Assembly: GCF_014651595.1 (NCBI RefSeq)
Contig: NZ_BMXE01000001.1
Location: 806,001-870,000, forward strand
Direction: 5' to 3'
DNA length: 64,000 bases
From: Pseudovibrio japonicus
GTDB taxonomy: Bacteria > Pseudomonadota > Alphaproteobacteria > Rhizobiales > Stappiaceae
Shown: positions 28,465 to 39,195 of the stretch, in pieces
Layout of the letters: the number at the start of each line of letters is the position of its first letter
Position numbering within the stretch: position 1 is the first letter of the stretch
Notes under the pieces: generated by a model
Database searches by the model: none
Seen by the model: only the letters and a program-made list of their open reading frames with translations
Told to the model about the DNA's origin: nothing
Translations under genes and position numbers: made by a program

Positions 28465-29241
28465 ATGACTCTCAATAGCTTACTCCTGATGCACATGATC
28501 AAGCAACGGCGACGGGCGTTCTCCAAACAAGAACAAAGAAACGGAGAACAAGACGTGCCACATGAACTTAACATGCCGCATCACGACATGCCTCGCGCAG
28601 TTATTTCTGAAGAGAACATCATCTTCGGAACAGCGGCTCTTGATGTAAACTTAGATCTCATTCCTGGACAGCTGCCGAGCCTCTATTTTATGGACGGAAA
28701 CGGCATATTCGTACGCCTTAGGGTCCTTCATCCAAGTGGTTTCGCTGTCTTCGAAGCAGATCATGCGAGTGTCTTCGCTCGAGTTCCCGGTCAATTTGAG
28801 CAAAATCTCGGAAACACCGGCGATGCAGTAAGACACAGCCTTATGCTCTTAGCAGACGGTAACGCTCCGGTCGGCATTGTTGACAAGAAAAACAATGGAG
28901 TATTTGTCTGGTATGCAAATGAAGCCGCGATGTCGAATCCGCGCAACGGCCAACCTCTTGACGAACGAGATGAACAAGGTCCGCCAAACGGGTATCACCA
29001 CAACGGTCATTCCATTGTGCACCGTAATGGGATCATCAATTACTACGATGAACACTATCCCGGCTTCTTGGATAAACTGATGCTTCTTGGGCAGCATGCA
29101 CAATCATATAATGTTCAGGTCGGCGATCTCATTCAAAACATCCCGATCCGCACTAACGTTGAATATTTCCAACGCAATGAGTTTGCAACCGGAGCGGATC
29201 AGCGACAAGCAATCGTTGCACTCGTAAACAGTTTCGTTTGA
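28465..29241 (+). CDS. Unrecognised 258-residue protein
   Basis: The start is well supported by GAAGGAG 6-7 bp before the ATG. No family is recognised. There is no signal peptide or clear membrane segment. Residues about 14-27 are basic/polar, and from residue 45 a mostly beta-rich pattern follows (IIFGTAALDVNLDLIPG, LYFMDGNGIFVRLRVLHP, VGIVDKKNNGVFVWYAN). A His/Asn/Tyr-rich stretch HHNGHSIVHRNGIINYYDEHY sits near residues 179-199. It lies alone between ccrM and tyrS, with its own terminator-like hairpin. Could be an accessory or lineage-specific gene. Confidence 0.75.
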   Translation: MTLNSLLLMHMIKQRRRAFSKQEQRNGEQDVPHELNMPHHDMPRAVISEENIIFGTAALDVNLDLIPGQLPSLYFMDGNGIFVRLRVLHPSGFAVFEADHASVFARVPGQFEQNLGNTGDAVRHSLMLLADGNAPVGIVDKKNNGVFVWYANEAAMSNPRNGQPLDERDEQGPPNGYHHNGHSIVHRNGIINYYDEHYPGFLDKLMLLGQHAQSYNVQVGDLIQNIPIRTNVEYFQRNEFATGADQRQAIVALVNSFV

Positions 29242-29305: not shown

Positions 29306-30577
29306 TTACACAAACTCCACCAAGGCCTTACGGCGCTTTCCAGCAGCGATGGTCAGGCGTTCGCCGGGTTTTAGGTCGCCTTCAGAGATCATCCGGGTTT
29401 CTTCCAAAACGATGGATGAGTTCAGGCGGATGCCGCCGCCACGGATGAGGCGGCGGGCTTCGCCGTTGGTTTCGGCAAAACCGATCTTCACCAGCAAATC
29501 CAACAGGCCAAGTGGCTTTGCCAGGAGTGCCAATGGGAGCTCATGGGTTGGCTGGGTAAGCTCCTGCTGACCGCCGAACAAAGCTTCACCCTGCTGGAGA
29601 GCAGCTTCGGCTGCGGCCAGACCGTGGACGATGCCGGTGACCTGCGTTGCCAGTATCTTCTTGGCCTCGTTGAGTTCCTGCCCCTTCAGGGAGGACAGGC
29701 GGTCAATTTCACCCAGTGGCAGGTCCGTGAACAACTTGAGGAAGCGGGAAACGTCCGCATCATCCACATTGCGCCAGAACTGCCAGAAGCCGAAGCTGGA
29801 GAGGCGGGACGGGTTGAGCCACACCGCGCCTTCTGCGGTTTTTCCCATCTTGCTGCCGGATGCCGTTGTCAGCAGCGGCTGGGTGAAGCCGAAGAGATGC
29901 TTTCCGGACCTGCGACCTAAGTCAACGCCATTGACAATGTTGCCCCATTGATCGGAACCGCCAAGCTGTAATGTACAGCCGAAGCGTTGGTTAAGCTCAA
30001 CAAAGTCAACGGCTTGCAGCATCATGTAGCAGAACTCAAGCACGGAAAGTGGCTGCTGTTCTTCAAGGCGGGAGCGGACACTGTCGAAGGTCATCATGCG
30101 ATTGACGGTGAAGTGGGTACCGAAGTCCCGGAGGAACTCAAGGAAGCGAAACTCGTCCAACCACTCAGCATTGTTGACGACTTTGCCCTGCCCATCGGAA
30201 AGATCAAAGAGACGCTCTACAGTTGCGCGGATGCCCGCAAGGTTATGGGAAATCTGCTCATCATCCAACAGTGGGCGGCTTTCAGTGCGGAAGCTTGGAT
30301 CACCCACGCGCGTCGTGCCACCGCCAATCAGAACGATTGGTCTGTGACCGTTTTTTTGGAGCCAGCGCATGGCCATGAGCGGCACCAAATGACCAGCATG
30401 CAAACTGTCACCTGTTGCATCGAACCCAGCGTATGCGGTGATGGGACCTGCTTGCAGTTTTTCGTCCAGCGCTTCCAGATCGGTGCATTGATGCAGGAAG
30501 CCGCGATCAATCAGCAGCTGAAGGGCTTCGGATTTAGGACGAAAACAACGGGTGGTATCAACGACTGTGTGTTTCAT
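29306..30577 (-). CDS. tyrS: Tyrosyl-tRNA synthetase
   Basis: 423 residues, normal length. The class I signature HAGH is at residues 60-63 (DSLHAGHLVP), the KMSKS equivalent is GSKMGKT, and an S4-type RNA-binding domain covers about residues 355-420 (GFAETNGEARRLIRGGGIRLNS). It charges tRNA-Tyr. The leader is unusual: a 24-codon upstream ORF with three Tyr codons, mutually exclusive hairpins, and a perfect hairpin containing its Shine-Dalgarno sequence. This suggests control of tyrS by charged tRNA-Tyr supply. Confidence 0.97.
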   Translation of the reverse strand: MKHTVVDTTRCFRPKSEALQLLIDRGFLHQCTDLEALDEKLQAGPITAYAGFDATGDSLHAGHLVPLMAMRWLQKNGHRPIVLIGGGTTRVGDPSFRTESRPLLDDEQISHNLAGIRATVERLFDLSDGQGKVVNNAEWLDEFRFLEFLRDFGTHFTVNRMMTFDSVRSRLEEQQPLSVLEFCYMMLQAVDFVELNQRFGCTLQLGGSDQWGNIVNGVDLGRRSGKHLFGFTQPLLTTASGSKMGKTAEGAVWLNPSRLSSFGFWQFWRNVDDADVSRFLKLFTDLPLGEIDRLSSLKGQELNEAKKILATQVTGIVHGLAAAEAALQQGEALFGGQQELTQPTHELPLALLAKPLGLLDLLVKIGFAETNGEARRLIRGGGIRLNSSIVLEETRMISEGDLKPGERLTIAAGKRRKALVEFV

Positions 30578-30581
30578 AATT

Positions 30582-30604
30582 CTCTCCTGCGCCGCGCAGG
30601 AGAG
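30582..30604 (-). promoter_or_regulatory. Hairpin sequestering the tyrS Shine-Dalgarno sequence
   Basis: On the minus strand CTCTCCTGCG, loop CGG, and CGCAGGAGAG form a perfect 10-bp hairpin. The 3' arm contains the only good ribosome site, AGGAGAG, which ends 4 nt before the tyrS ATG. Folded, it should block initiation; how it opens is unknown. Confidence 0.7.
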
Positions 30605-30614
30605 CTAAAACACG

Positions 30615-30637
30615 AAAGCCGCCTACGCGGCGGCTTT
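30615..30637 (-). terminator. Candidate attenuator hairpin (3:4) in the tyrS leader
   Basis: On the minus strand AAAGCCGCC (30637-30629), loop GCGTA and GGCGGCTTT (30623-30615) form a perfect 9-bp stem, followed by CGTGTTTTA. The T tract is interrupted, so it may terminate inefficiently. Its 5' arm can instead pair with 30684-30678 (CGGCGGC), giving the antiterminator. Confidence 0.6.
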
Positions 30638-30664
30638 TGGTTCTGACCTCAATTTTACATGAGT

Positions 30665-30739
30665 TTATAGGAACGCGGCCGCCGATATGTCGGTCGCATA
30701 ATAATAAACTGCAGAAATGATGGTCAGGTTCTTGCTCAT
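30665..30739 (-). CDS. Putative tyrosine leader peptide of tyrS
   Basis: A 24-codon ORF that begins with MSKNLTIISAV, continues YYY (TAT TAT TAT, 30706-30698), then ATDISAAAFL and TAA. It lies wholly between the predicted promoter and tyrS, 87 bp before the tyrS start. No separate Shine-Dalgarno is seen, but the ATG lies about where the promoter places +1, so translation may be leaderless, as for trpL in Sinorhizobium. A ribosome stalled on the Tyr codons would cover segment 1 (GCGACCGACATA) and free segment 2 (30684-30678) to pair with segment 3 (30634-30628), preventing the 3:4 hairpin. The arrangement is seen directly; the mechanism is inferred. Confidence 0.7.
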   Translation of the reverse strand: MSKNLTIISAVYYYATDISAAAFL

Positions 30740-30746
30740 GCCCAAG

Positions 30747-30776
30747 TGTATGACTGCAACTGACTGTCTGTGTCAA
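30747..30776 (-). promoter_or_regulatory. Predicted tyrS promoter
   Basis: A perfect -35 TTGACA (30776-30771) and, after 17-18 bp, a weak -10 (CATACA) on the minus strand. It would start transcription at about 30740, at or next to the leader-peptide ATG. The poor -10 keeps confidence moderate. Confidence 0.5.
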
Positions 30777-30810
30777 GAAAATTTTAGCAGATTGTGCTCA
30801 TTACCCGATT

Positions 30811-31509
30811 TCAGGCAGGGGTATTAAGCAGATTCAGCTGCTTCAGGAGGCGCACTAACTCTTTCATATCATTGAAGATTGCCAGAGGCTCTTGTTGTTC
30901 CAGCCGGTTGTGCAAATTCTGGTCGGCATGGGTGGCGCCAGTGAAGCCCAGAGCGTCCATTCCAGCGGCGCGAGCGGCCTGAAGGCCGAGGTGGCTGTCT
31001 TCGATGACGATACATTTTTCCGGAGCGACGCCCATCTCGCTTGCTGCTTTGAGGAAGACATCCGGCGCAGGTTTGCCCTTCTCCACCAGATCTGCCGAGA
31101 AGTACTTGTTCTCGAAGCGATCATGCAGGTTGGTCAGCTTGAGCGTGTATTCCAAACGTTCCATGGAACTGCCGGACCCAATGCACATTTGCAGGTTTGG
31201 GAATGATGTGTCCAACTCATGCAATGTGTCGTAGATGCCAGCGATTGGCAGCAAGTCTTTCTCGAAGGCAGCTTTGAGTGCCTCATCCTGATTTAAAAGA
31301 GCGTCATGATGGCGAATATCGCGGCCAGTCTCTGCTTTCACCTGTCCGAAGACCTCAGCGGCGGACACTCCGCAGAAGCGTGCAATCATATCTTCGGTCG
31401 AGATCGGGTAGCCCGCCTTCGTGAAGCTTTCGGCCTCCACCTTGCAGCCAATCCACTCGCTGTCGATCAGGCAGCCATCACAATCCCAAATAAGCAATTC
31501 GTAGTTCAT
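30811..31509 (-). CDS. HAD-superfamily hydrolase (GPH/beta-PGM type)
   Basis: 232 residues. Motif I WDCDGCLIDSE (about residues 8-18) has the DxD nucleophile; the second Asp sits in DCDG as in phosphoglycolate phosphatase and beta-phosphoglucomutase relatives. A helical cap follows (about 20-90). Motif II is IGSGSS, motif III KGKPAPD, and motif IV VIEDSHLGLQAARAAGM. It probably dephosphorylates a sugar phosphate or similar small substrate in the cytoplasm. Divergent from the fucosyltransferase-like gene. Confidence 0.85.
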   Translation of the reverse strand: MNYELLIWDCDGCLIDSEWIGCKVEAESFTKAGYPISTEDMIARFCGVSAAEVFGQVKAETGRDIRHHDALLNQDEALKAAFEKDLLPIAGIYDTLHELDTSFPNLQMCIGSGSSMERLEYTLKLTNLHDRFENKYFSADLVEKGKPAPDVFLKAASEMGVAPEKCIVIEDSHLGLQAARAAGMDALGFTGATHADQNLHNRLEQQEPLAIFNDMKELVRLLKQLNLLNTPA

Positions 31510-38800: not shown

Positions 38801-39069
38801 GGCGTACACGTCAAAGACCATCCCTGTTCACGGAATGATCGCGTACGCCCCCTCTGTCTCGAGAACCTGAGAGATTTCCCCCACTGGCCGTCACAGGCCA
38901 ATGAGATTACTCCTTCGGTGAGTAACGTAACGCGCGATCCTTTAAGACTGCGGCGCTGCGCACTGCTTTCCAGAGTGTTGCTTACTGTGCGGTCCTTTTG
39001 CCTGAGAGTTTCCGGGGCGGTTGCTCCTTCGGCGATAAATCCAGTTTGGGCTTATTCTCTCCCGCACAG
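38801..39069 (-). promoter_or_regulatory. Tandem glycine riboswitch controlling the gcv operon
   Basis: Two glycine aptamers are visible on the minus strand. Aptamer 1 spans 39069-38986, closed by CTGTGCGG/CCGCACAG, with CGAAGGAGCAA and GGAAACTCTCAGGCAAAAGGAC. Aptamer 2 spans about 38939-38837, closed by GATCGCG/CGCGATC, with CCGAAGGAGTAA and GAAATCTCTCAGG. About 46 nt link them. GTACGCC (38843-38849, plus strand) next to aptamer 2 can pair with GGCGTAC (38801-38807) just before the gcvT ribosome site, a likely expression platform. Glycine binding normally switches gcv on. Confidence 0.93.
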
Positions 39070-39195
39070 CCCTGTCATTCGCCAGCCCTCCTCAGACCCG
39101 GCGAATGTATTCTTTCTCGCTGGCTGCAACGTGACAGCGAGAAAGGCTGGCGCGACACTGTGACGCCAAGCTGTAAAGTCTTACTACCCTACTTT

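Follow-up and report, generated by a model that had tools for sequence, protein, structure and literature searches.

We wanted to know what a row of three tyrosine codons is doing just upstream of a tyrosyl-tRNA synthetase gene in Pseudovibrio japonicus. The window that we analysed is a stretch of 64,000 nucleotides of this genome, and all coordinates refer to it. The gene (29306-30577, minus strand, 423 amino acids) matches TIGR00234 with 369.7 bits as well as PF00579 and S4, and a check of the sequence places its ATG at 30577. The genome contains two tyrS genes, and the other copy, located on another contig, is 50% identical to this one. We refer to the window copy, the one downstream of the leader, as tyrS2. 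The original prediction of a leader in front of a tyrS is thus correct, but it missed that this tyrS is the second of two, an auxiliary gene beside an ordinary one. On the far side, a 258-amino-acid open reading frame (28465-29241, plus strand) adjoins tyrS2 on the opposite strand and has no Pfam match at an E-value of 0.001. Elsewhere in the window there is a glycine riboswitch aptamer (38980-39074, minus strand, 71.3 bits).

The leader reading frame, MSKNLTIISAVYYYATDISAAAFL followed by a stop, is found where it was predicted (30665-30739, minus strand, 24 codons), with the proposed sensor codons TAT TAT TAT at 30698-30706. Such a run is indeed improbable by chance: the window contains 962 reading frames of 10 to 40 codons when all six frames are counted, and no other of them encodes YYY or YFYY. 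For a comparison we used a set of 50 loci, namely the window and 49 tyrS2 loci (L003-L050 and L057) from the best 80 of 97 relatives; L032, L038 and L049 were counted in as members of the same family. L001 was excluded from the counts because it is the window locus in the other orientation, so that the reading frame found there is not a leader. L068 was also excluded, as it has a chance reading frame that is picked up by a loose rule and not flagged by a stricter one; for L067, the upstream sequence comprises only 149 bases. A short reading frame with a tyrosine run, in the form YYY, YFYY, YYF or FYY, precedes tyrS2 in 50 out of 50 loci, with three tyrosine codons in 46 leaders and two in the remaining 4. 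As judged from the sequences, this is the feature by which an attenuator can be recognised, that is, a putative leader with codons for the amino acid of the downstream gene. Ten further regions from the family (L112-L121), of which L112, L113 and L116 are new loci, all have the leader.

The region in front of the leader is equally uniform. As predicted, a perfect -35 element TTGACA is present in the window (30771-30776, minus strand), and the likely -10 element CATACA (30747-30752, minus strand) would set the start of transcription at or next to the leader ATG. In the 50 loci we find TTGACA (30) or TTGACT (20) always 28 to 32 bases upstream of an in-frame ATG. Note that the leader ATG was chosen by this rule, as the in-frame ATG 28-32 bases after the last TTGAC, and that 20 of the 50 leaders have a second in-frame ATG. 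A -10-like CATTTA or CATACA occupies positions -13 to -8 before the ATG, where columns -13, -12, -11 and -8 are C, A, T and A in 39, 38, 32 and 37 loci, respectively; a C directly precedes the ATG in 49 loci, and only one (L046) has a motif that resembles a Shine-Dalgarno sequence. Between the leader ATG and the aligned tyrS start, which is not always the start codon, there are 162 to 215 bases. Taken together, the promoter motifs fit a transcript that begins with the leader ATG or right beside it, and the constant spacing between TTGAC(A/T) and an in-frame ATG makes it likely that the leader is translated leaderless, without a Shine-Dalgarno sequence.

Next, we asked which RNA structures could connect the leader with the gene. 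All of the following segments lie on the minus strand. Segment 1 (ATGCGaCC, 30692-30699) starts inside the last tyrosine codon. Segment 2 (30673-30684) has two predicted partners, as its CGGCGGC can pair with segment 3 and its GGcCGCGT with segment 1. Segment 3 (30629-30637) and segment 4 (30615-30623) are the 5' and 3' arms of the putative terminator, a 9-bp hairpin spanning 30637-30615 with the interrupted T tract TTTCGTGTTTT behind it. Both this hairpin and the perfect 7-bp pairing of CGGCGGC (30684-30678) with GCCGCCG (30634-30628) had been predicted and are found at these coordinates, and hairpin 3:4 is present in all 50 loci. By eye, one can also see a possible extension of the antiterminator, in which GTTC (30671-30674) would pair with GAAC (30643-30640).

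The pairing 1:2 needs a revision. The proposed CCGA/TCGG hairpin does exist in the window (-3.7 kcal/mol), but it is poorly kept in relatives: in an alignment of 30 sequences its two inner pairs are lost in 10 and 13 cases and no two-sided change can be seen, so we rejected it as the conserved form. The conserved 1:2 is longer and consists of ATGCGaCC (30699-30692) and GGcCGCGT (30680-30673). Counted as seven pairs it scores -5.8, and the best fold of the stretch (-9.4) contains those seven pairs and two more. In the 30 sequences, 78.3% of the cells of 1:2 are paired, which is not above column shuffles (78.4%) and exceeds the values for a partner slid by 1-3 columns (17-52%). Two-sided changes occur in 3 of its 8 pairs, a number reached by 11 of 500 shuffles. 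Two of the inner pairs cannot form in 22 and 25 of the 30 sequences, respectively. In the divergent loci L009, L010, L012, L022, L037, L112 and L160 there is a hairpin at the same place with other letters, while L015, of the Roseibium type, folds otherwise there. Pairings 2:3 and 3:4 are formed in 97.1% and 97.4% of the cells; the former has no two-sided change and the latter has one pair with such a change. Since both are hardly variable, they can give little covariation. Of the expected conservation in relatives we find the tyrosine run everywhere and the compensatory changes mainly in 1:2, with a single pair in 3:4 and none in the nearly invariant 2:3. A lack of conservation of run and pairing in close relatives, named in the original prediction as a refutation, was thus checked and the outcome speaks for the attenuator.

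The T tract after the stem GGCGGC has 5 T in 8 bases in the window; counted in the same way, 46 of the 50 loci reach 5-6 T and the other 4 have 3-4. In the loci of the Pannonibacter carbonis type (L022, L027, L113 and L114), the leader and the hairpins are kept with almost no T tract after 3:4, which makes termination doubtful in these loci.

To see whether the position of a ribosome can decide between these pairings, we first folded leader RNAs that end with the terminator to equilibrium, which did not reveal a switch. In the full-length RNA 3:4 wins even with a ribosome at the tyrosine codons; when it is placed at the last one, a single locus of the 50 has a value below 0.5. The same is true for the trpL leader of Escherichia coli, our control, in which 3:4 is also favoured at full-length equilibrium. 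As 3:4 wins at equilibrium, a switch must be kinetic. In place of equilibrium folding we used nascent-RNA folding, in which the RNA is made up to the loop of the terminator and the position of the ribosome is varied. Here, the upstream pairing of segment 3 in the window is 0.15 in the free RNA, 0.99-1.00 with a ribosome at a tyrosine codon and 0.15 with a ribosome at the stop codon. The same procedure applied to E. coli trpL gives 0.05, 0.40-0.73 at the cognate codons, and 0.05. Averaged over 50 loci, the value is 0.63 for the free leader; with a ribosome it is 0.99 at the first tyrosine codon, 0.94 at the penultimate one, 0.87 at the last and 0.26 at the stop. The prediction that stalling at the tyrosine codons frees segment 2 and blocks 3:4 is thus borne out in the nascent folds of most loci, and trpL behaves alike. 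According to these computations, 1:2, 2:3 and 3:4 would be mutually exclusive and set by the position of the ribosome in the window and in most of its relatives.

The switch is not equally clear everywhere. The best stalled state exceeds both other states by more than 0.1 in 26 of the 50 loci; in the remaining 24, the preference for 2:3 is about as strong in the free, untranslated leader as it is under stalling. At the last tyrosine codon there is no gain over the stop state in L019, L021, L024, L046, L047 and L048. The transition takes place two to three codons past the last tyrosine (means of 0.88, 0.63 and 0.18 at +1, +2 and +3). Codons that precede the tyrosine run are permissive for the antiterminator as well, which makes the tyrosine codons the last, and not the sole, place where waiting opens the gene. 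For 12 loci chosen out of the 50 we shuffled the spacer 60 times each, and the mean change dropped to 0.03, compared to 0.63 for the real sequences. In eight of these loci at most one shuffle was as high as the real sequence; the number was two in L010 and L042, five in L009, where the result is weak, and fifty-eight in L046, which fails this test (change of -0.28). Among the loci outside of the set, L112 switches (1.00 at the tyrosine codons, 0.05 at the stop, 1.00 free), and so does L160, for which an ATG nine bases further up was taken (0.93 and 0.85 at the tyrosine codons, 0.20 after them). In L161, for which a longer reading frame was taken, the switch is weak (0.93 and 0.75, then 0.65).

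How widespread is the arrangement? Among 87 genomes of the Stappiaceae, 66 have a relative of tyrS2 with a best E-value of 1.7e-182 or better. The remaining 21 reach 3e-139 at best, as is usual for the ordinary tyrS. A tree of 65 tyrosyl-tRNA synthetases, 15 of them tyrS2, unites these 15 in a fully supported group that does not include the ordinary copy from the window genome. A covariance model built from 25 leaders (R1) matches 67 of the 87 genomes at an E-value of 0.01 or better: the 66 genomes with tyrS2 at 8.8e-9 or better and one further genome, G016, at 1.3e-4. A comparison of coordinates by eye shows that the match lies upstream of tyrS2 and on the same strand in all 66, with a gap of 35 to about 92 bases to the aligned tyrS2 start. 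The 20 genomes without a match belong to genera g2, g3 and g7, and all of them are without tyrS2. Of the 15 stretches with a match away from tyrS2 that we read, one (L149) precedes a tyrS, one is that of G016 and the other 13 resemble ordinary terminators or unrelated sequence.

G016 belongs to the genus of the window. Its stretch (L142, G016:C1:3417000-3420000) has kept the leader and the hairpin in the absence of an intact tyrS2, and this relic precedes decayed pieces of tyrS2 in two frames.

In 397 genomes of the order, strong R1 matches were found exclusively in the Stappiaceae. Weak matches that are real on reading occur in two genomes of family f44 (L160 in G349 and L161 in G402), where a leader MIKNAPIAANYYATLP and its stop are followed by a hairpin with TTTTTC and then by a second tyrS. 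These two are the only ones with a tyrosyl-tRNA synthetase gene among the eight weak loci L157-L164. This reading covered the weak matches of the order other than those in G038:C2, G449, G165, G336:C63 and G116; of three further places left out of L157-L164, G277:C1:833606 was read as L150. In a quick tree, the tyrS2 sequences of the Stappiaceae and of f44 are apart, but a tree that joins them has the higher likelihood (AU test, p = 0.80), and these trees neither establish nor reject a common origin of the two. In G286, from family f18 of the order, there are two tyrS matches at an E-value of 1e-100 or better. We were not able to find any other convincing element in 289 genomes of the class, with ten weak places lying outside of the reading, and none of the five weak class-wide loci that we inspected has a tyrosyl-tRNA synthetase gene. 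A short tyrosine-rich reading frame (YY or Y[FY]Y) within 350 bases upstream was found at none of 77 tyrS loci outside the Stappiaceae (31, 17 and 29 from three sets, the underlying genomes of which may overlap). In the window genome, the ordinary copy of tyrS lacks such a leader too. In five genomes of the family without tyrS2, the ordinary tyrS has no tyrosine-rich reading frame in four cases and one that starts with GTG in the fifth (L125). Neither viral contigs, searched for exact matches to a single 18-base piece from Roseibium, nor plasmids, searched with the leader of the window, gave a match.

Can these observations be explained in another way? One alternative is that the leader does sense tyrosine, and that its output is translational, with 3:4 not mainly a terminator and the access to the tyrS2 start site being switched. 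It gains some weight from a second hairpin that the original prediction had overlooked, CTCTCCTGCG-CGG-CGCAGGAGAG (30582-30604, minus strand), which lies over the Shine-Dalgarno sequence of tyrS2 in a stretch of -23.9 kcal/mol (z = -5.4). In the best fold of the window, the sequence after segment 4 (30613-30606) moreover pairs with TGAAACAC at the tyrS2 start (30569-30576, minus strand). The accessibility of the tyrS2 Shine-Dalgarno sequence, 0.00, is the lowest of the 17 reading frames of at least 200 codons in the window (median 0.40). Across the 50 loci, the sequence that separates the terminator from tyrS2 is more stably folded than shuffled versions of it (z below -1 in 42, median -2.9), and the arms of the hairpin, read by eye, vary between lineages and still pair (GGCT/AGCC, GGCA/TGCC, GGTC/GACC). 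The four loci with only 3-4 T after the stem point the same way. However, the mean access to the Shine-Dalgarno sequence is 0.15 in one state of the leader and 0.13 in the other, and that to the start codon is 0.37 in both; single loci shift in either direction. That the tyrS2 start is hidden in both states is a point which the attenuator does not account for. A control of the start site by the state of the leader is thus unsupported on average, and with 5-6 T after the stem in 46 of 50 loci we consider a translational output unlikely.

It could also be the peptide itself that matters, either by arresting its own ribosome as a nascent chain or by acting in trans, as is reported for the trpL peptide of Sinorhizobium (PMC7298713). 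The end of the peptide past the tyrosine run is very constant in the 28 leaders of 21 codons, in which we measured the variation of the codon positions. In codons 2-8 the three positions vary alike (0.21, 0.27, 0.28). Codons 9-12, mostly V Y F Y, show low variation (0.03, 0.08, 0.10) that is due to TAT/TAC, Tyr/Phe and one shifted run. In codons 13-21, which start with the last tyrosine, the third positions vary least (0.062, 0.036, 0.015), as is expected of RNA pairing and not of a protein. By this pattern the start of the peptide is barely constrained, the tyrosine run is kept and the rest is constrained more as RNA than as protein. Across lineages, the sequence after the run changes (ATDISAAAFL, TAPF, AANI, ATHS, ATLP) whereas two to three tyrosines are kept, and a role of the peptide as such appears very unlikely to us. 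Finally, there might be no regulation at all, only a chance reading frame, a terminator that belongs to the preceding gene, and a start-site hairpin with no relation to them. An HAD-type gene does lie upstream on the strand of the leader and ends at 30811, so a terminator at this place would not be odd in itself. Yet in the nine loci compared, the upstream reading frames vary in length and strand while the leader, the hairpin and the promoter spacing are constant, and the leader and tyrS2 occur together in 66 out of 66 genomes; we give this explanation hardly any credit.

We therefore favour a ribosome-mediated transcription attenuator that reads the charging of tyrosyl-tRNA and controls the auxiliary tyrS2, with a probability of roughly 0.8. 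Its footing is the conservation of the locus together with the two-sided changes that 1:2 shows and the switch seen in computed nascent folds; the value was trimmed because 24 free leaders favour 2:3 and six loci are without a gain. In the course of events that we infer, from the start of transcription through translation and termination to the response to tRNA charging, the RNA would begin with the leader ATG or directly beside it, and the leader would be translated without a Shine-Dalgarno sequence. With ample Tyr-tRNA the ribosome would pass the tyrosine run, and segment 2 would be held by segment 1 or, as in Roseibium, lie under a ribosome that has reached the stop codon close by. With segment 2 occupied, hairpin 3:4 would form and transcription would end before tyrS2. 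When Tyr-tRNA is scarce, the ribosome would wait at the tyrosine codons and cover segment 1, so that segment 2 could pair with segment 3 before segment 4 is made, and the RNA polymerase would continue into tyrS2. A bolder version is possible, albeit tentative: the first tyrosine-specific leader-peptide attenuator, leaderless and in front of a reserve tyrosyl-tRNA synthetase, would be combined with an independent lock, the conserved hairpin over the ribosome-binding site, to be opened for example by the synthetase or by some other signal. In this version, the reserve synthetase may serve when the main one is inhibited or when charged tRNA-Tyr is scarce.

Leader-peptide attenuators have been reported for several amino acids and for few aminoacyl-tRNA synthetases. 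In the open-access literature, with subscription papers mostly outside of its scope, we found no tyrosine leader peptide before a tyrS, nor was one found in the open-access literature on second or Pseudovibrio tyrosyl-tRNA synthetases. If the attenuator is real, tyrosine joins the amino acids with such a system, the marine Stappiaceae gain a ready sensor of Tyr-tRNA charging, and one can put to the test why a second synthetase is kept under such a control in 66 of the 87 Stappiaceae genomes.

Among the known systems, the T-box of tyrS in Firmicutes likewise responds to the charging of tRNA-Tyr. There, the tRNA is bound directly by the RNA and a leader peptide is not required, unlike in the system proposed here; Rfam T-box models have no match at gathering scores in the whole window, nor up to an E-value of 10 in 30400-30900. 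The pheM-pheST system of enterics is a leader-peptide attenuator of an aminoacyl-tRNA synthetase as well, but with phenylalanine codons. The Rfam model for it, Phe_leader (RF01859), scores 18.9 bits on this strand of the window and 23 on the other, below its gathering score of 55. The nearest parallel in design comes from another phylum and concerns another amino acid: in Streptomyces, an auxiliary, antibiotic-resistant tryptophanyl-tRNA synthetase is reportedly under attenuation (Vecchione and Sello, 2010). A comparative paper on attenuation describes attenuators before the synthetase genes trpS and leuS of Streptomyces, again in another phylum and for other amino acids, and for tyrosine it names T-boxes (PMC1262725). 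With E. coli trpL the locus shares the short reading frame with cognate codons, the exclusive pairings 1:2, 2:3 and 3:4 and the behaviour in nascent folding, whereas there it is tryptophan and biosynthesis and here tyrosine and a synthetase gene, with no Shine-Dalgarno-like motif before the leader ATG. In this last respect the trpL leader of Sinorhizobium meliloti seems closer, an alphaproteobacterial leader peptide whose RNA begins with the ATG (PMC7298713); it differs in serving tryptophan and trpE(G), and a start at the ATG, described there, is for tyrS2 what the promoter motifs suggest.
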